Positions 28,754 to 36,876 of a stretch of DNA of 37,406 nucleotides are shown piece by piece; position 1 is the first letter of the stretch, and each line of letters starts with the position of its first letter. The stretch covers positions 1-37,406 of the forward strand of contig JARKOQ010000063.1 of the NCBI GenBank assembly GCA_029976005.1. Direction: 5' to 3'. The notes under the pieces were generated by a model that saw nothing but the letters and a program-made list of their open reading frames with translations, did not search any database and was not told where the DNA came from. Made by a program: the position numbers and the translations under genes. Source of the stretch: Aggregatilineales bacterium. Lineage in GTDB: Bacteria > Chloroflexota > Anaerolineae > Aggregatilineales > Ch27.

Positions 28754-29143
28754 ATGGAAACCCTGACGCTGCACCTTCCGGCTATGTACGGCGATCACCA
28801 TGTCATCGAGGTGCGCCGGCTCGTGTTGGGACTGCCTGGCGTGGTGGATGTCGACGCCAGCAGTTGTTTTCAAGTCGTGGAGATCGCTTTCGATCCGGCG
28901 CAACTCTCGTCGGAAACGATCCGGGCCACCCTGGATGAAGCCGGATACCTCCAGCCGCTGTCGTTTCCCGCAGAAGCCGGAACCTCAGCTTACCTATCCT
29001 CATCACAGGTCTTCTTTCGGCACACCGCAGCTTCGGAACAGATCAGGCAAGTGTTGAGCTTTGCCCAGGACCTCCCCGCAGGCGGGCGTGCATTGTGGCC
29101 CTGCCCTGGCCTGGGTCCCGTCCGCCTGGCAGAAGAGGAATAG
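28754..29143 (+). CDS. HMA-fold (heavy-metal-associated-like) protein without the CxxC motif
   Basis: A 129-residue protein. Residues 1-66 fit the beta-alpha-beta-beta-alpha-beta ferredoxin-like HMA pattern: LHLPAMYGDHHVIEVRRLVLG, then LPGVVDVDA, VVEIAFDP and IRATLDEAGY. The metal-binding C-x-x-C of copper or nickel HMA proteins is replaced by an AMYGDHH loop, which offers Asp and two His. The remaining 60 residues have no recognisable fold. AAAGGGGA precedes the ATG. It lies between a nickel-hydrogenase protease gene and the nickel enzymes CODH and ACS, so a metal-delivery or assembly role is attractive but unproven. Confidence 0.7.
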   Translation: METLTLHLPAMYGDHHVIEVRRLVLGLPGVVDVDASSCFQVVEIAFDPAQLSSETIRATLDEAGYLQPLSFPAEAGTSAYLSSSQVFFRHTAASEQIRQVLSFAQDLPAGGRALWPCPGLGPVRLAEEE

Positions 29144-29147
29144 GAAC

Positions 29148-31163
29148 ATGGCCAAGGCCAAGCGCACCCCTCAGGAACAGAGCATCGATCCCGCCGCCCA
29201 ACAAATGCTGGTTCGCGCCGAGGAGATTGGCGTCAGCACGGCCTTCTCTCGCGCGGATGACCTGGCCCCCTGTAACATCGGCTCGGCCGGGATGTGCTGC
29301 AAGCTGTGCGGCATGGGGCCGTGCCGCCTGACCAAGGACGGGCAGACCGGAATCTGCGGGGCGACGATCGACACGATCCAGGCCCGCAATCTGATCCGGG
29401 CCATCTCCGCCGGGGCCGCGGCCCACTCCGATCACGGCCGCGACATGGCCTTCACGCTGAAGGCCGTCGCCAACGGAGAGGCGGAAGGCTACTTCATCCG
29501 GGATGTGGCCAAGCTGCGCACGGTGGCTGCCCACTACGCTATCCCCATCGAGGGCCGCGCGCCGGAGGAGATCGCCAACGACCTGGCGGACCTGTACCTG
29601 GCCCAGTTTGGCCAGCAGCGGGGCGTGGTCGCGCCGGTCGTCCGCGCGCCGGAGAAGCGCCAGCAGCGCTGGAAGGAGCAGGGAATCCTGCCGCGCGGCG
29701 TCGACCGCGAGGTGGTGGAGGCACTGCACCGCACCCACATCGGCGACGACCAGGACCCGGAGCACATCCTCCAGCACGGGGTGCGCACGGCCCTGGCCGA
29801 TGGCTGGGGCGGCAGCATGATCGCCACCGACGTGGCCGACATTCTGTTTGGGACTCCCGCGCCGATTCTGGGCCAGGCCAACCTGGGCGTGCTCAAGCAG
29901 GATATGGTCAACGTCGTCGTGCACGGCCACGAGCCAACCCTCAGCGAGATGATCGTCGCCGCTTCCCAGACGCCGGAAATCATTGAATATGCCAAAGCAG
30001 CCGGAGCCAAAGGCGTCAACCTGGCCGGCATCTGCTGCACGGCCAACGAAATCCTGATGCGTCAGGGCGTCCCGGCGGCGGGTAACTTCCTCCAGCAGGA
30101 GCTGGCGATCCTGACCGGCGCGGTCGAGGCCATGGTGGTCGATGTGCAGTGCATCATGCAAGCGCTGGTCGGCCTGGCCGAGAACTTCCACACGCTGATC
30201 ATCACCACGTCGCCCAAGGTCAAGATCAAGGGCGCGACTCACATCGAGTTCGATGAACACAAGGCCCTGACGATTGCCAAGGAGATTCTGAAGAAGGCGA
30301 TTGACAACTACAAGAATCGGGGTGAGACGCACATCCCCGATGTGCGCGAAGACCTGATCCCCGGTTTTTCGCACGAGTATATCAACTACATGCTCGGCGG
30401 CTCGTACCGGGCGTCGTTCAGGCCGCTGAACGATGCCATCATCTCCGGGCGTATCCGGGGGGTGGCGGCCATTGTGGGCTGCAACAACCCGCGCAGCTCG
30501 CACGACTACCTGCACACCTATGTTACTCAGGAGTTGCTCAAGCAGGATGTGCTGGTCGTGCAGACCGGGTGCGGGGCCATCGCCAGCGCCAAGCTGGGGC
30601 TGCTGCTGGGCGAAGCCGGTCTGGATCAGGTCGGGCCGGGCCTGCGCGAGGTCTGCGAGGCGGTCGGCATCCCGCCCGTGCTGCACATGGGATCGTGCGT
30701 GGACAATACCCGCATCCTGACCGTGCTGACGCAGATGGTCGCGGATGGCGGGCTGGGCGATGACATCGACCAGATTCCGGCGGTGGGCCTGGCACCGGAG
30801 TGGATGAGCGAGAAGGCGCTGGCGATTGGCACCTACTGCGTCGCTTCTGGCGCGTACGTGATCTTCGGCGGCGCTTCCCCGGTCAGCGGCATGCCCGACC
30901 GGGTGAGCGACAGCGACATCGTCCTGAACTACATCTCCTCCGGCTGGGAAAAGCTGTATGGCGGCAAGCTGGAGTTCGTGGCCGATCCGGACGAGATGAT
31001 CCGCCGCGCGTTGGCCCACATCGATCAGAAGCGTGCCGCGTTAGGGCTGGCCGAATACCGCCCGGAGCGGTTCGGGCGCAGCGGCGATGCGCGCATCCAC
31101 GAGCTGGAGCAGTTGTCCCTGGCCGAGCAACGGCAGGCCCTCTACGGCCTGACCAACCGGTAG
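29148..31163 (+). CDS. acsA: Carbon monoxide dehydrogenase catalytic subunit (CODH, AcsA/CooS)
   Basis: Ni-Fe CODH of 671 residues, close to the acetogen enzyme. It reduces CO2 to CO with ferredoxin and sends CO through a tunnel to ACS. D- and B-cluster cysteines lie in PCNIGSAGMCCKLCGMGPC (C42, C50, C51, C54, C59) and GICG. C-cluster ligands are seen in VHGHEP (His), GICCTANE, GCNNPR, TGCGAI and YCVASGA. The ATG at 29148 follows AGGAA just after the preceding gene's stop. It directly precedes acsB, as in a bifunctional CODH/ACS complex, so this is the alpha2beta2 type instead of a stand-alone CO-oxidising CooS. I see no CooC-like nickel-insertion ATPase in the window. Confidence 0.96.
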   Translation: MAKAKRTPQEQSIDPAAQQMLVRAEEIGVSTAFSRADDLAPCNIGSAGMCCKLCGMGPCRLTKDGQTGICGATIDTIQARNLIRAISAGAAAHSDHGRDMAFTLKAVANGEAEGYFIRDVAKLRTVAAHYAIPIEGRAPEEIANDLADLYLAQFGQQRGVVAPVVRAPEKRQQRWKEQGILPRGVDREVVEALHRTHIGDDQDPEHILQHGVRTALADGWGGSMIATDVADILFGTPAPILGQANLGVLKQDMVNVVVHGHEPTLSEMIVAASQTPEIIEYAKAAGAKGVNLAGICCTANEILMRQGVPAAGNFLQQELAILTGAVEAMVVDVQCIMQALVGLAENFHTLIITTSPKVKIKGATHIEFDEHKALTIAKEILKKAIDNYKNRGETHIPDVREDLIPGFSHEYINYMLGGSYRASFRPLNDAIISGRIRGVAAIVGCNNPRSSHDYLHTYVTQELLKQDVLVVQTGCGAIASAKLGLLLGEAGLDQVGPGLREVCEAVGIPPVLHMGSCVDNTRILTVLTQMVADGGLGDDIDQIPAVGLAPEWMSEKALAIGTYCVASGAYVIFGGASPVSGMPDRVSDSDIVLNYISSGWEKLYGGKLEFVADPDEMIRRALAHIDQKRAALGLAEYRPERFGRSGDARIHELEQLSLAEQRQALYGLTNR

Positions 31164-31173
31164 GAGGAAAGCC

Positions 31174-34020
31174 ATGTCCCGCTATATCGCCACCCGCGCG
31201 ATCCGAGGGGCCAATGCCCTGGTGGCCGAAGCCGAGGTCATGCTCCACAAGGCGCTGGCCGAAAAAGGGCCGGATACCCCGGTCGCCTTCCCCAATACCG
31301 CCTACTATCTGCCCCTGATTTTTGGCATGACCGGGCGGCAGATCGAAACCATCGGCCAGTTGGCGCCAATCCTCCAGGAAGCCCGCGCCTTGCTGCATCC
31401 CTTGCCCTCTCAGCAGCACTGGACGCCTTACCTGGGCGAGACACTGGATAGCGGCATGGCGACTCTGCTGGCCGCCGAGGTGATTGAGGCGCTGCGTTTT
31501 GTGTATGGCCTCCAGCCGGAGCCGATGCCCGGCTTTCACCTGGCCGGCGGCACGTCCTTCACGAGTCCCGACAACGGGCAGGGCGCCAACGGCCATGACG
31601 GCCACCTCAACGGGCCGATCGACGACATCCAGCTCCGCACGTGGGGCATCCAGCTCGTCGACGGGCGCATGCCTGGCTTCGCGGCGATTGTCGGCGCGGC
31701 CAAATCCAACGAGGTCGCGGTCAGAATCGTGCGCGAGCTTCAGCGCCGCAACATCCTGACCTTCCTGTCCGGCAACGTCAACGGGCGCAGCATCATCCAC
31801 CAGTTGATGGAGGAGGGCGTCGAGCTGGGTTACGACACCTATACCGTACCCTTCGGCACGGACACGATCAGCGCCATCTACGCGCTCGGCTTTGCGGTGC
31901 GCTCGGCGCTGACCTTTGGCGGCATGAAGGGCGGCATGGCCCGCGACATCCTGATGTACAACAAGGAGCGCGTCTTTGCCTTCGTGCTGGCCCTGGGCGA
32001 GGTCGATGATCTCAAGTACGCCGCCGCCGCCGGCGCGATCAACTTCGGTTTCCCGGTCATCGCGGATACGGTCATCCCGGAAATTCTGCCGACTGGCGTC
32101 ACCACCTACGAGCACGTGGTCAGCCTGCCCTTCAACGAGATCGACGGCGTGGATGACCTGGAGCGCGCCGAACGGCTGGTGCAGAAGTGCATCGAGGTGC
32201 GCGGCGTCAAGGTCAAGGTCGCCAACGTGCCGGTGCCGGTGCCGTATGGCTCGGCGTTCGAGGGCGAGGTGGTGCGCAAGGCCGACATGCGGATCGAGTT
32301 CGGCGGCAAGTATTCGCGCTGCTTCGAATACCTGACCATGGCCGAGCTGGACGCGATCACCGACGGCAAGGTCGAGGTGATCGGGGACGGCTTCGCGGCG
32401 ATCGAAGCCCAGGGCCATATGGACATGGGGATCGTGGTCGAAGTCGCCGGGCGCGAGATGCAAAAGGACTTCGAGCCGGTGTTGGAGCGCCAGATTCACT
32501 ACTTCGTCAACGGGGCCTCCGGCATCCAGCACATCGGCCAGCGCGACATCGCCTGGATTCGCATCTCGACGGCTGCCGCCGACAAGGGCTTCGACCTGGA
32601 GCACTTCGGCAAGATCATCCACGCCCGGCTGCACGCCGACTTTGGCGCGATCGTGGACAAGGTCCAGGTCACGATCTACACCGAGCCGCAGCAGTTGCAG
32701 GCCTGGCTGGCCAGGGCGCGCACCGCCTACGACTACCGCAACAAGCGCCTGGCCGACCTGACTGACAATTCTGTTAATGAGTTTTATAGTTGTACTTTGT
32801 GCCAGTCTTTCGCCCCGGACCACGTCTGTATCGTCAGCCCGGAGCGGCTGGGTCTGTGCGGCGCGTACAACTGGCTGGACTGCAAGGCCTCCTTCAGCAT
32901 CAACCCCACCGGCCCCAACCAGCCGATCAAGCTGGGGACGCAGATGGACGGCCGCAAGGGGTACTGGACAGGCATCAACCAGTACGCCCAGAGTGCCTCG
33001 CACGGCAAAGTCGGCGAAGTCGCCATGTACTCGATCATGGAAAACCCGATGACGGCCTGTCTGACGGCCGATGCCACGCTCGTGGTTGATGGGCATACAA
33101 CGACGATCGGCGCGTGGGTCGAAGCGCATCTCGGCCAGCAAGGCCCCTTTGAGGCCCGCGTGTTGACCCTGGACGAACAAGGGCAGGTCGTCCCCAGCCA
33201 GATTCTCGGGGTCCACCGTAACCCCGCGCCGCCCGTCCTTGTGGAGATGACGACAAAATCCGGGCAAAAGCTGACGCTCACGCCCAACCATCCAGTTGCG
33301 GTGGATCAGCCTGATGGGTTGAATTGGCTGCGTGCCGACGAGATAGGCGCAGGTGATCGCATCTATGCTGCGCGAACACCCTCCTTGGCAGAGAAAACCG
33401 GCCGATCGCGACCCGTCAGGAGCAACGTCGAGCGCGTGCTTGCCGCTCAGCCGGAAGCCGGGCCTGTCCTGCAACCCTGGCTGGAACACGAGGACTTCCT
33501 CGACACCGTGACTCGTGTCGAGATGGTCGAGAGCGGAGATCGTAATCCCTGGGTCTACAACCTGAGTCTGTTGGACATCAACAGTTATCTCGCCAATGGC
33601 TTGCTGGTGAAAAACTGCGGGTGCTTTGAGTGCATCGTGATGCTGATCCCGGAAGCCAACGGCGTGATGGTTGTCAACCGCGAGGATACCAGCATGACTC
33701 CGGCGGGCATGACCTTCTCCACCCTGGCCGGGATGGCGGGCGGCGGCCTGCAAACGCCGGGCGTGATGGGCGTCGGCAAGTTCTACCTGGTCAGCCCCAA
33801 GTTCATCTCGGCTGACGGCGGCTTCAAGCGCGTGGTGTGGATGAGCAGCGTGCTGAAGGAGACGATGGCCGACGAGTTCAAGGCCGTCGCCGAACGCGAG
33901 GGCGATCCGGAACTGCTTGAGCGGATTGCCGACGAGCGCAGTGTCACCACGGTCGAGGAGCTGCTGGCCTGGTTGGAAGCCCACAACCACCCGGCGCTGG
34001 TGATGGACCCGATTTTCTAG
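31174..34020 (+). CDS. acsB: Acetyl-CoA synthase (ACS, CODH/ACS subunit) carrying an in-frame intein
   Basis: ACS condenses CO, a corrinoid-bound methyl group and CoA into acetyl-CoA. The 948-residue precursor minus a 186-residue intein leaves 762 residues, close to full-length bacterial AcsB (about 730). It keeps the N-terminal CODH-binding domain absent from archaeal forms. A-cluster cysteines C540, C543, C552 and C562 lie in YSCTLCQSFAPDHVC and GLCGAY. Their spacings of 3, 9 and 10 equal those of Moorella Cys506, 509, 518 and 528. The Moorella Cys595-Gly-Cys597 motif is here C815-G-C817, immediately after the intein (residues 629-814). Without the insertion its spacing from C562 is exactly the Moorella value of 67. 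ATG 31174 follows TAGGAGGAAAG. A sharp AT-rich codon patch covers residues 531-547. Confidence 0.95.
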   Translation: MSRYIATRAIRGANALVAEAEVMLHKALAEKGPDTPVAFPNTAYYLPLIFGMTGRQIETIGQLAPILQEARALLHPLPSQQHWTPYLGETLDSGMATLLAAEVIEALRFVYGLQPEPMPGFHLAGGTSFTSPDNGQGANGHDGHLNGPIDDIQLRTWGIQLVDGRMPGFAAIVGAAKSNEVAVRIVRELQRRNILTFLSGNVNGRSIIHQLMEEGVELGYDTYTVPFGTDTISAIYALGFAVRSALTFGGMKGGMARDILMYNKERVFAFVLALGEVDDLKYAAAAGAINFGFPVIADTVIPEILPTGVTTYEHVVSLPFNEIDGVDDLERAERLVQKCIEVRGVKVKVANVPVPVPYGSAFEGEVVRKADMRIEFGGKYSRCFEYLTMAELDAITDGKVEVIGDGFAAIEAQGHMDMGIVVEVAGREMQKDFEPVLERQIHYFVNGASGIQHIGQRDIAWIRISTAAADKGFDLEHFGKIIHARLHADFGAIVDKVQVTIYTEPQQLQAWLARARTAYDYRNKRLADLTDNSVNEFYSCTLCQSFAPDHVCIVSPERLGLCGAYNWLDCKASFSINPTGPNQPIKLGTQMDGRKGYWTGINQYAQSASHGKVGEVAMYSIMENPMTACLTADATLVVDGHTTTIGAWVEAHLGQQGPFEARVLTLDEQGQVVPSQILGVHRNPAPPVLVEMTTKSGQKLTLTPNHPVAVDQPDGLNWLRADEIGAGDRIYAARTPSLAEKTGRSRPVRSNVERVLAAQPEAGPVLQPWLEHEDFLDTVTRVEMVESGDRNPWVYNLSLLDINSYLANGLLVKNCGCFECIVMLIPEANGVMVVNREDTSMTPAGMTFSTLAGMAGGGLQTPGVMGVGKFYLVSPKFISADGGFKRVVWMSSVLKETMADEFKAVAEREGDPELLERIADERSVTTVEELLAWLEAHNHPALVMDPIF
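32764..32812 (+). other. AT-rich codon patch over the A-cluster cysteines of acsB
   Basis: From about Asp531 to Ser546 most codons end in A or T (aat tct gtt aat, then ttt tat agt tgt act), in a gene where nearly all other codons end in G or C. The protein sequence itself is conserved (NEFYSCTLCQSF). The patch begins and ends abruptly and includes Cys540 and Cys543. Confidence 0.7.
33058..33615 (+). mobile_element. Mini-intein in acsB (186 residues, no homing endonuclease)
   Basis: Hint-type self-splicing element between N-extein MENPMTA and C-extein CGCFECIVML. Block A begins at Cys1 (CLTADATLVV). Block B has the T-x-x-H motif T75-P-N-H78 in GQKLTLTPNHPVAV. The N4 block is WLRADEIGAGDRIYAA (90-105). 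Block F is VYNLSLLDINSYLANG (166-181). Block G is LLVKN (182-186) followed by +1 Cys. Only about 45 residues separate N4 from the C-terminal blocks and none resembles LAGLIDADG or HNH endonucleases. Unusual points: the penultimate residue is Lys instead of His, the usual block F Asp is Asn, and the block F histidine is absent. Third-position GC is more mixed than in the exteins. The element removes itself post-translationally if active. Confidence 0.93.
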
Positions 34021-34027
34021 GAGGGGC

Positions 34028-34537
34028 ATGACCGAGCGCCTGCTGGTACGCGACCTGATGACCGTGGGGGTGACCACCTGCCCGCCGCAGACCCCGGTGG
34101 TGGAGGTCGCGCGCCTGCTGCTGGAGCGGGACCTCGAAGCGGTCGTCGTGCTGAACTCCGATGGACACGGCATCGGGGTCATCTCTCAGGATGATGTGGT
34201 GGAGGCTTATGGGCGGGACGACTGTGACGGGTTGACCGCCGAGGACATCATGCGCGACGACGTGCCGCAGGTTCCGCCCGATATCCCGCTCAAAGCCGCC
34301 GCCCAGATCATGCGCGATCAAGGCGTGCGCGCCCTGTTCCTGTCTCATCGGGCGGAAGGAATCACCTACCCGGCCGGCGTGATCACCTACCGCCATTTTC
34401 TGCGGCAGCTTGCCGCCCGCGACGATGGCGATCTGGCCGATCTGGGTATCCGGGCGGTGCGCAAGGAGCCTCTGCAATCTTTTTTCGAGCGGCGTGATGC
34501 GGCGCGGCGGCAGGCCCGCCAGCGCGATCAGGAGTGA
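34028..34537 (+). CDS. Two-CBS-domain protein
   Basis: A 169-residue soluble protein with a tandem CBS pair: CBS1 about residues 6-62 (VRDLMTVGVTTCPPQTPVVEVARLL ... GIGVISQDDVV) and CBS2 about 70-128 (AEDIMRDDVPQVPPDIPLKAAAQIM ... GVITYRHFL). The last 40 residues form a charged helix. CBS pairs usually bind adenine nucleotides or S-adenosylmethionine and signal energy state to a partner. It sits eight bases after acsB and overlaps the region just before acsD, so it is co-translated with the acetyl-CoA synthase machinery. This suggests an allosteric or assembly regulator of that complex, not a stand-alone protein. That role is inference. Confidence 0.9.
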   Translation: MTERLLVRDLMTVGVTTCPPQTPVVEVARLLLERDLEAVVVLNSDGHGIGVISQDDVVEAYGRDDCDGLTAEDIMRDDVPQVPPDIPLKAAAQIMRDQGVRALFLSHRAEGITYPAGVITYRHFLRQLAARDDGDLADLGIRAVRKEPLQSFFERRDAARRQARQRDQE

Positions 34538-34542
34538 CAGGT

Positions 34543-35517
34543 ATGCCAGTTCAGATTCCCAAGGACTCATGGGCCGGAAGCGTCCGCACGGTGACGCTGG
34601 GCGCGACGGCAGCCGAAGGCGGCACGCGGGCGCGATCGGTCACGGTGGGCGGCCAGAAGACGCTGCCGTTCATGCACTTCGAGCAGGTGACGCCCCACCG
34701 GCCGCTGGTGGCGATCGAGATCAAGGATCGCCGTCCGGAAGACTGGTCGCCGCTGCTGCTGGACGTGTGGGGCGACGCGATGGGCGATCCGGCCGCCTGG
34801 GCCAAAGCCGCCGAGCAGGCCGGGGCCGATCTGCTGGTGCTGGCCCTCAGCCTGACCGGGGGCGATGGACAGCCCACCCAGCCTCAGGCTGCGGTTGCCG
34901 CGGCGAAGGCGGTGCTGGACGCCAGCGGGCTGCCGCTGATCGTGTTCGGCCCCGGTCAGGCCGAGGCCGATAACGCGCTGCTGGTTCCCGTGGCCGAAGC
35001 GACCAAGGGCGAGCGCATCGCGCTGGGCATCTGCGAGGACAAGAACTATCGTACGCTGGTCGCCACGGCGCTGGCCAACGATCACCGGGTCATCGCCCGT
35101 TCGCCGATGGATGTCAATCTCGCCAAGCAGCTCAACATCCTGATCCACGACATGGGCCTGCCGCTGGATCGGATTTTGATGGATCCCACGACCGGGGCGC
35201 TGGGCTACGGGATCGAGTACGGTTATTCCGTGATGGAGCGGCTGCGTCTGGCCGCCCTGCAAGGCGACGCCATGACCCAGCTTCCCATGATCGTCACGCC
35301 GGGCTTCGAAGCCTGGAAGGCCAAGGAGGCCAAGGTCGGTCAGGACGTGCCGGAGGCCTGGGGTAACTGGGCGGAGCGGGCGATCACCTGGGAGGCGCTG
35401 ACCGCCGTGACCCTGATCGAATCCGGGGCGGACATCGTCGTGCTGCGCCACCCGGAGAGCGTCCGGCGCGTGCGCCAGGCGATCGATGCCTTGATGGCCG
35501 TGCCGGAAACTGCATAG
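34543..35517 (+). CDS. acsD: Corrinoid iron-sulfur protein small subunit (CFeSP beta)
   Basis: A 324-residue TIM-barrel subunit that pairs with AcsC to carry the methyl group to ACS. Family segments include SVTVGGQKTLPFMHFE near the N-terminus, VAIEIKDRRPEDWSPLL, ICEDKNYRTLVATAL, RSPMDVNLAKQLNILI and the DPTTGALGYGIEYGYSVMERLRLAAL block. I chose ATG 34543, with AGGAG upstream, over a GTG at 34534 that overlaps the CBS gene stop. Order acsD-acsC and close spacing are standard. Confidence 0.95.
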   Translation: MPVQIPKDSWAGSVRTVTLGATAAEGGTRARSVTVGGQKTLPFMHFEQVTPHRPLVAIEIKDRRPEDWSPLLLDVWGDAMGDPAAWAKAAEQAGADLLVLALSLTGGDGQPTQPQAAVAAAKAVLDASGLPLIVFGPGQAEADNALLVPVAEATKGERIALGICEDKNYRTLVATALANDHRVIARSPMDVNLAKQLNILIHDMGLPLDRILMDPTTGALGYGIEYGYSVMERLRLAALQGDAMTQLPMIVTPGFEAWKAKEAKVGQDVPEAWGNWAERAITWEALTAVTLIESGADIVVLRHPESVRRVRQAIDALMAVPETA

Positions 35518-35535: not shown

Positions 35536-36876
35536 ATGGCACTCTCTGGTATTCAGATTTACAAGCTGCTGCCCCAGACCAACTGCAAGGATTGCGGCTT
35601 CCCCACCTGCCTGGCCTTTGCCATGAAATTGGCGGCCAAACAGGTCGAACTGGCCGCCTGCCCGCACGTCAGCGCCGAGGCCCAGGCCCAGCTTGCCGAG
35701 GCTTCGGAGCCGCCGGTGCGCCTGATCAGCCTGCGCTCGAACGGGTTCGAGGTCAAGGCCGGGAACGAGGTCGTGCTGTTCCGCCATGAGAAGACCTTCT
35801 ACAACAAGCCGGGTCTGTTCCTGCGCGTGCGGGACAGCGAGCCGGTCGAGGCCATCCGGGCCAGGGTCGCGGCGGCGGACGGCTACCATGTGAACTACGT
35901 CGGGCGGGATCTCAGCCTGGATGGGTTCGCGGTGGAGGCGACAGGCGACAATCCGGCCGTGTTCACGGCCGCGATCGGCGCGGTGCGCCAGGCCAGCCAC
36001 CGGCCCCTGATTCTGATCAGCCATAACCCCGACCTGATCGCGGCCGGGCTGCGGCTGCTGGATGGAGAGCATCCCCTGATCTGCGGCGCGGACGCCTCCA
36101 ACTGGGAAAAGATGGGCGACCTGGCCAAACAGCACGGGGCGGCCCTGGTCGTCTGCGCCGATTCGCTGGATGGCCTGGCGGACCTGGCGACGAAGCTCAA
36201 GGATCGGGGCGTGGCTGACCTCGTGCTGGACCCGGCGGCGCGCCAGTTGGGCGCGTCCCTGCTGCTCGGCACGCAAATCCGCAGGCTGGCGCTCCGCCAG
36301 AATTTTCGCCCGCTGGGCTATCCGGTGATCGCTTTCCCTGGGGATGCACCCGATCCGGCTCAGGAAGCGACCCTGGCGGCCCAGGCGATCGCCAAGTATG
36401 CCGGGTTCATCGTGCTCGACCATTTTGCGGCGGAAGTGATGTACCCGCTGATGGTGCTGCGCGAGAACATCTACACCGACCCGCAGAAACCGATCCAGGT
36501 GCAGCCCGGCATCTACGAGATCAACAATCCAGGCCCCGAATCCCCGGTACTGGTCACGACCAACTTCAGCATCACGTATTTCAGCGTCGCCAACGAGGTC
36601 GAGAGTTCGGGCCTGCCGGCCTGGCTGATCGTGGCCGATGCCGAAGGCATGAGCGTGCTCACGGCCTGGGCGGCGGGTAAGTTTGACGCGGAGCGGATCG
36701 CCAAGTCGGTCAAGGGCTTTGGCATCGCCGACAAGGTCAGCCGCAAGCGGATCGTGCTGCCGGGGCATGTAGCGGTGCTTTCCGGCGAGCTTGAGGAGGA
36801 ACTGCCGGACTGGGAGATTCGCGTTGGGCCGCGCGAAGCGGTCGATCTGCCGGCTTTTATGAAACAGACTCTCTGA
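35536..36876 (+). CDS. acsC: Corrinoid iron-sulfur protein large subunit (CFeSP gamma)
   Basis: A 446-residue subunit with an N-terminal [4Fe-4S] domain, a TIM barrel and a C-terminal cobalamin-binding domain. The cluster motif is C17-x2-C20-x4-C25-x16-C42 (NCKDCGFPTC then AAC), exactly the CFeSP pattern. The cluster reactivates the cobalt when Co(II) forms. The C-terminal part includes TTNFSITYFSVANEVESSG and the GKFDAERIAKSVKGFGI segment. Co(I) of the bound corrinoid accepts the methyl group from methyl-THF through a methyltransferase (AcsE) not visible here and delivers it to the A-cluster of ACS. Confidence 0.96.
   Translation: MALSGIQIYKLLPQTNCKDCGFPTCLAFAMKLAAKQVELAACPHVSAEAQAQLAEASEPPVRLISLRSNGFEVKAGNEVVLFRHEKTFYNKPGLFLRVRDSEPVEAIRARVAAADGYHVNYVGRDLSLDGFAVEATGDNPAVFTAAIGAVRQASHRPLILISHNPDLIAAGLRLLDGEHPLICGADASNWEKMGDLAKQHGAALVVCADSLDGLADLATKLKDRGVADLVLDPAARQLGASLLLGTQIRRLALRQNFRPLGYPVIAFPGDAPDPAQEATLAAQAIAKYAGFIVLDHFAAEVMYPLMVLRENIYTDPQKPIQVQPGIYEINNPGPESPVLVTTNFSITYFSVANEVESSGLPAWLIVADAEGMSVLTAWAAGKFDAERIAKSVKGFGIADKVSRKRIVLPGHVAVLSGELEEELPDWEIRVGPREAVDLPAFMKQTL

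Follow-up and report, generated by a model that had tools for sequence, protein, structure and literature searches.

The window analyzed here is the whole 37,406-nucleotide stretch of contig JARKOQ010000063.1 (assembly GCA_029976005.1) from an Aggregatilineales bacterium of the phylum Chloroflexota. It contains acsB, the gene for acetyl-CoA synthase (ACS), which assembles acetyl-CoA from one-carbon units. The acsB reading frame is interrupted by an insert with the landmarks of an intein. The frame at 31174-34020 was identified as AcsB by the NCBIfam model CODH_ACS_al_bet NF040764, which matched in two stretches with 935.6 bits against a cut-off of 800, and the A-cluster cysteines 506, 509, 518, 528, 595 and 597 (Moorella numbering) are all present. 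The Moorella number equals the residue number in P0001 minus 34 (chains 1mjg_M/1oao_C, ungapped over 136 residues); C540, C543, C552 and C562 are thus Moorella 506, 509, 518 and 528, and the first cysteine after the insert (+1), counted without the insert, is 595. By this ungapped numbering, the cysteine spacing of 3, 9, 10 and 67 that an earlier note on this DNA had matched to Moorella 506/509/518/528/595 is right. Below, the insertion point at Cys595 is called site b and a second one at Cys509 site a. The features of the gene are as follows:

31174..34020, + strand: acsB precursor gene, 948 amino acids (aa) plus stop, from the open frame and family models
31174..33057, + strand: N-extein, residues 1-628, ending MENPMTA at Moorella residue 594
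32791..32802, + strand: C-T-L-C, Moorella Cys506 and Cys509; site a, empty in the window gene and occupied in relatives
33058..33615, + strand: predicted mini-intein of 186 aa, Cys1 to Asn186, precursor residues 629-814, from family model, residues and predicted fold
33058..33060, + strand: intein Cys1 codon, start of block A; Cys in 57/57 site-b inteins
33280..33291, + strand: block B T-P-N-H, intein Thr75-His78; TxxH in 57/57 site-b inteins
33382..33393, + strand: position, by alignment, of the LAGLIDADG endonuclease domain of longer relatives, absent here
33553..33615, + strand: blocks F and G, VYNLSLLDINSYLANGLLVKN, with the penultimate Lys at 33610-33612 and the terminal Asn at 33613-33615
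33616..33624, + strand: Cys-Gly-Cys, Moorella 595-597; the first Cys is the +1 residue, the predicted nucleophile and by homology a ligand of both nickels
33616..34017, + strand: C-extein, beginning CGCFEC

The insert in acsB

The ACS-model match and the alignment to solved ACS chains both break at residues 629-814, exactly between MENPMTA and CGCFEC, where the model match resumes. An intein at 33058..33615, exactly at the Cys-Gly-Cys motif, was what the earlier note had claimed, and its coordinates proved exact: the 948-codon frame is continuous, and intein_Nterm TIGR01445 scores 34.8 bits on the insert, above the NCBIfam cut-off of 24.5. The predicted fold of the insert, from structure prediction and fold matching, is the Hint/intein fold, the absence of which that note had named as a refutation. 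The insert lies in frame in a conserved host with an empty site in relatives and has Cys1, TPNH and Asn186 followed by Cys, in accordance with class 1; its 186 aa lack a homing endonuclease domain, and no Pfam match to a LAGLIDADG domain was found at E<=1. Judged from its sequence and modeled structure, the insert is very probably a class-1 mini-intein, predicted to self-excise and to join Ala628 to Cys-Gly-Cys, the first Cys of which is the equivalent of a nickel ligand. A predicted structure of the entire 948-aa precursor was set aside (predicted template-modeling score 0.51, very low confidence around both A-cluster motifs).

The fold matches also include Hedgehog and bacterial intein-like structures, as would be seen if the insert were a Hint domain of one of these other classes that cleaves only. 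Such domains do not ligate conserved flanks. The +1 Cys stands at all 112 of the site-b and site-a junctions mapped below, and we regard a cleaving-only domain as highly improbable.

Several points weigh against the intein reading. Two Pfam models stay slightly under their curated cut-offs (PF14890 Intein_splicing, 34.4 against 35.8; PF01079 Hint, 27.2 against 29.7), as does TIGR01443 intein_Cterm, scored on the whole protein (12.5 against 15.6); the Hint-profile comparison suggested in the earlier note thus succeeded for TIGR01445 and fell slightly short for these three. The penultimate residue is Lys185 instead of the usual His, and block F, VYNLSLLDINSY, has Asn at the position where, we take it, the consensus has His. 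Among the Hint blocks that the note had listed, the landmarks Cys1, TPNH and Asn186 stand, and block F and the penultimate residue depart from the usual ones. The contrast in G+C at third codon positions (GC3), 0.704 in the intein vs 0.881 in the exteins, which sets the codons of the insert apart from those of the host gene, is modest evidence, with 12 of 2300 overlapping 186-codon windows of neighboring genes equally low. Splicing of the window AcsB is itself a prediction from sequence and model.

A decayed mini-intein that no longer splices, leaving ACS inactive, would fit the non-canonical Lys and Asn, the absent endonuclease and the sub-threshold Pfam scores. However, Lys is found in 51 of the 57 site-b inteins and block F Asn in 29 (His in the other 28), long members included, and a penultimate His is usual but not defining, as cyanobacterial DnaE inteins have Ser or Ala (PMC5874633). 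The frame, Cys1, TPNH, Asn186 and the +1 Cys are all intact, and the proportion of nonsynonymous differences (pN) is well below that of synonymous ones (pS), although synonymous sites near saturation make pN/pS only a rough guide. The neighboring cooS, acsD and acsC all exceed their family cut-offs. A dead intein is improbable on this evidence.

The gene lies in a Wood-Ljungdahl cluster. It is preceded by cooS/acsA and, farther upstream, by hydrogenase and Hdr-like genes, and it is followed by a CBS-domain protein, acsD, acsC and the beginning of a gene resembling acsV:

29061..31163, + strand: CO dehydrogenase catalytic subunit (cooS/acsA), directly upstream of acsB; TIGR01702, 606.8 bits
34028-34537: CBS-domain protein between acsB and acsD, with two CBS-domain stretches
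34534-35517, + strand: acsD
35536-36876, + strand: acsC

The own genome is a metagenome-assembled genome (MAG; 82% complete, 268 contigs), in which ACS was found at a single place. The same genome has weak intein matches in three further contigs (L002, L003 and L004 on G000:C174, C102 and C5), where DnaE, Sms/RadA and DnaB frames carry intein models; the host therefore has several inteins.

Related inteins and their distribution

The search for relatives used residues 600-840 as query; 2735 proteins matched, and the best 120 of these include dozens of ACS with an insert at exactly the window position. A survey of AcsB homologs for such insertions had been proposed in the earlier note, and 57 of 158 mapped ACS proteins proved to be occupied at site b (158 of 174 were kept, with at least 500 mapped residues required). 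Divided by site, 40 have an intein at b only, 38 at a only, 17 at both and 63 at none. At least three of the last (P0135, P0153, P0167) are fragments ending inside a site-a intein, and P0040, tallied under a only, matches the b intein as well and probably has both. All 57 b and 55 a junctions have Cys1, the terminal Asn, the +1 Cys and TxxH in the block-B span (a loose pattern, sought at intein residues 46-170), and the penultimate Lys prevalent at site b is also found in 50 of the 55 site-a inteins. Long b inteins measure 440-571 aa, with LAGLIDADG motifs in those aligned, while inteins shorter than 300 aa account for 16 of 57 at site b and 0 of 55 at site a. The mini-intein belongs to this mobile LAGLIDADG family; the earlier note had missed this as well as the sister family at the second nickel-ligand cysteine, which is described below.

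Among named genomes, 30 of 32 junction-pattern matches are ACS with a b intein; the other two, L048 and L051 in genome contigs, are chance matches. By title, the 30 records comprise 18 of Chloroflexota type, four Aerophobetes, three Omnitrophota, two Acetothermia/Bipolaricaulota, two Actinomycetota and one Poribacteria, and one more protein of the b search, P0051, is named Thermoplasmatota archaeon; these labels are the depositors', and mis-binning of MAGs is possible for single cases. In viral contigs, there were no exact matches to the b or a C-junction patterns. As the window is a MAG contig, an assembly or binning chimera was considered; its junctions are exact and in frame, and the same site recurs in the 30 pattern-selected loci and the 57 mapped proteins, so that a chimera is extremely improbable.

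Several proteins in these sets have additional domains. P0009 and P0014, which consist of a C-terminal part of ACS, an intein and a PF03599 domain, are annotated as "subunit delta" at source, and intein-bearing ACS genes are therefore easily missed. P0029, P0042, P0124 and P0125 are ACS with a CdhD-like domain (PF03599) and a C-terminal tail of ~480-550 aa, apparently ACS fused to a corrinoid-protein subunit, a type that perhaps includes the G009 and G015 frames. ACS frames of ~1230 aa in the class survey were rejected as further inteins, as the ACS halves abut where coordinates are readable (e.g., G009, G015); they would instead match the architecture of P0029 and P0042, in which a CdhD-like domain is fused to the C-terminus.

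Within the same order, 16 of 20 scanned loci show an uninterrupted Cys595 site by the motif used. The other four comprise L025 and L026, from intein-bearing genomes, and L017 and L029, from genomes in which the ACS halves abut and the motif was unmatched. ACS was found in 27 of 101 genomes of the own order, with an intein in eight of the 27 (b in seven, a in five, both in four), as read from breaks between high-scoring segment pairs, one a intein being split over two contigs. The same-family genomes G002 and G004 have an empty site. A sample of the class gave an ACS match in 156 of 396 genomes, with the b junction pattern in 13 of the 156 and the a pattern in three, counts that are lower bounds since the patterns demand exact codons. 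One of the 14 b-pattern matches in the 396 genomes (G296, L073) is a chance match outside ACS.

On a tree of 112 ACS, no fewer than 23 changes are required for the b state, and starred branches force 12 of these; on the intein tree the long/short state needs 15 changes, with 18 of 61 inteins short. The intein set was restricted to complete inteins after removal of six duplicates, and for the analysis of gain and loss 49 of 61 were kept, with at least 600 mapped residues required; the trees are quick ones or from FastTree, and the extein tree came with a warning of meeting long branches (P0051 with P0049). The window ACS and that of L053, the nearest host relative, lie inside a starred group of 15, the remaining 13 of which are empty. 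Over 762 residues, the host parts of these two share 91% identity, and each has a mini-intein. Separate gains had been considered for these two from pairwise intein identities of 59% (L053) vs 71% (L039) and were dropped, as the values became 65% and 69% on the family alignment. The sister tree of the window and L053 inteins had a higher likelihood than the alternative, and the approximately unbiased test does not reject them as sisters (p 0.627), which leaves separate gains of these two unsupported. Oddly, synonymous sites between window and L053 are saturated in the inteins (pS 0.797) and not in the host flanks (pS 0.488 over 234 codons). Taken from these sequences, the picture would be that of a homing element gained or lost several times, with its endonuclease also lost more than once.

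Nickel ligands, splicing and the second site

Three cysteines, Cys595, Cys597 and the bridging Cys509, coordinate the proximal nickel of the A-cluster, whereas the ligands of the distal nickel are Cys595 and Cys597 together with the backbone amides of Cys595-Gly-Cys597 (PMC10299331). The +1 residue of site b, equivalent to Cys595, is therefore a ligand of both nickels, just as the earlier note had said of the splicing nucleophile. Its further claim that no A-cluster can form before splicing was overstated. The complete CGC tripeptide falls inside the C-extein, and 136-residue C-terminal ACS fragments whose first residue directly precedes Cys595 bind nickel by themselves; 0.5-0.8 Ni was present in each of three variants that have additional residues inserted between 594 and 595 (PMC8910529). 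In a crystal of one such variant, the nickel lay elsewhere, at a place involving the free N-terminus, with the distal site vacant (PMC8910529); nickel uptake by fragments is therefore no proof of a distal site in the precursor. A distal site might form on the unspliced chain, and the complete A-cluster with Cys509 and the cubane is plausibly the part that waits for splicing.

We propose that an ancestor of the window intein entered acsB by homing, at a target around the Cys595 codon, and that the endonuclease was lost afterward. In splicing, Cys1 would form a thioester and Cys595 would then take over the N-extein; Asn186 would cyclize, perhaps assisted by Lys185 in place of His, and the exteins would be joined. 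The product would be a 762-residue ACS with an intact Ala-Cys-Gly-Cys, to be loaded with nickel afterward. Since Cys595 must be a free thiol as nucleophile and is a nickel ligand too, splicing would precede the uptake of nickel, and any Ni(II) that the CGC motif bound too soon would prevent splicing. This order, splice first and nickel second, is chemistry that we infer, which tempers the proposal. The persistence of the intein would be mainly that of a selfish element: it occupies an essential codon of the active site, where inexact removal would destroy the enzyme. It may also bring a regulatory benefit, though none is required.

Site a has Cys509, the bridge between cubane and proximal nickel, as its +1 residue. 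Of the three thiolates that bind the catalytic nickel, two (Cys509 and Cys595) are thus used by the two insertion sites found in ACS. A third site was found in none of the 158 mapped ACS, a count that is biased since the queries cover just these two. The a and b families are mutually closest among those tested, with cross-profile medians of 80 or 90 bits and minima of 53 and 74; six intein-bearing proteins other than ACS scored 15-32 and 17-53 bits with these profiles, in a comparison that removed the middles of the long ACS inteins and kept those of the controls. Two site-a intein-bearing ACS, P0137 and P0138 (~1895 aa), have a CO dehydrogenase (PF03063) domain and are possible CODH-ACS fusions. 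In the window gene, the 11 codons preceding the empty site a (32767-32799, NSVNEFYSCTL) have G/C at two of 11 third positions, the lowest count in 3650 overlapping 11-codon windows from eight stretches, although the GC3 of the gene is near 0.88. This AT-rich segment may be the footprint of a past site-a intein, left by co-conversion and loss, or a recoded homing target.

The positions of both sites at proximal-nickel cysteines raise the question whether the inteins are kept as a splicing checkpoint that holds the oxygen-sensitive ACS inactive until conditions are reducing and the metal supply is right. Each of the 55 inteins mapped at site a has a Cys at -3, which could form a disulfide trap with Cys1 like that of the Pyrococcus MoaA intein, where the trapping Cys presumably also stands at -3. 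A disulfide between the N-extein Cys and Cys1 stops MoaA splicing upon oxidation (PMC10663303), and at site b, the persistence of inteins shorter than 300 aa (16 of 57) would agree with such a role. On the other hand, the Cys at -3 is Cys506, conserved anyway for the cubane, the window intein has Met at this position, most sampled ACS genomes lack an intein by the lower-bound counts above, and a patchy presence fits a selfish element. We consider the checkpoint possible but doubtful. A similarly tentative status applies to its wider form, in which ACS hosts a dedicated pair of sister inteins, with Cys509 and Cys595 of the three proximal-nickel cysteines as nucleophiles, acting as a thiol/metal gate that permits full nickel uptake by the A-cluster only after splicing under reducing, metal-poor conditions. 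If true, splicing would be the switch that turns on acetyl-CoA synthesis in many uncultured bacteria, and in at least one archaeon.

Known inteins and significance

The most familiar inteins are those of replication and repair proteins. The solved Pyrococcus CDC21-1 and RadA inteins are the closest folds and sequence matches to the insert and share the common intein landmarks; they differ in their replication/recombination hosts, in sequence (about 18-27% identity) and from the mostly penultimate Lys of the ACS family. The Pyrococcus abyssi MoaA intein likewise interrupts an oxygen-labile metalloenzyme, and site-a ACS inteins share its N-extein Cys near Cys1 (PMC10663303); its host is not ACS, however, and the window intein has no N-extein Cys beside the junction. 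The Mycobacterium tuberculosis SufB intein also sits in an Fe-S related protein (PMC8891592), but SufB is an assembly factor instead of an Fe-S/Ni enzyme. Further known relatives are pipeline-named entries ("LAGLIDADG family homing endonuclease", "CO dehydrogenase/acetyl-CoA synthase beta subunit/intein/homing endonuclease"), which have the same host and the window site or its sister site and differ in being long and endonuclease-bearing.

A literature search covering few subscription papers found no published description of an ACS intein, the pipeline-named ones included, in agreement with the earlier note. In the passages covered, one paper names inteins in GyrB and DnaE and none in ACS (PMC6390638), another states that two methanogens have no intein-bearing protein other than ribonucleotide reductase (PMC3087415), a third has DnaE inteins and none in ACS (PMC1274311), and a fourth describes an intein fused to a methylase and none in ACS (PMC11208441); the other papers found mention nothing comparable. 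The kind of element is known; as far as that literature goes, the ACS host, the sister families at nickel cysteines and the prevailing penultimate Lys are undescribed.

The ACS family is a source of natural penultimate-Lys inteins, and it makes a debate testable in one enzyme, namely whether inteins at catalytic cysteines are redox/metal sensors or parasites of conserved codons. Wood-Ljungdahl capacity may be undercounted because databases split some insert-bearing ACS genes or label them "homing endonuclease" or "subunit delta". In MAGs of several phyla, the central Wood-Ljungdahl enzyme is interrupted at two sites that coincide with its metal ligands. The dependence of carbon fixation on splicing that the earlier note had inferred is likely for the host of the window: with one ACS place found in its genome, acetyl-CoA synthesis there probably depends on splicing, a second copy being conceivable at 82% completeness. 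In other uncultured microbes with ACS inteins, the acetyl-CoA step would likely depend on protein splicing as well.
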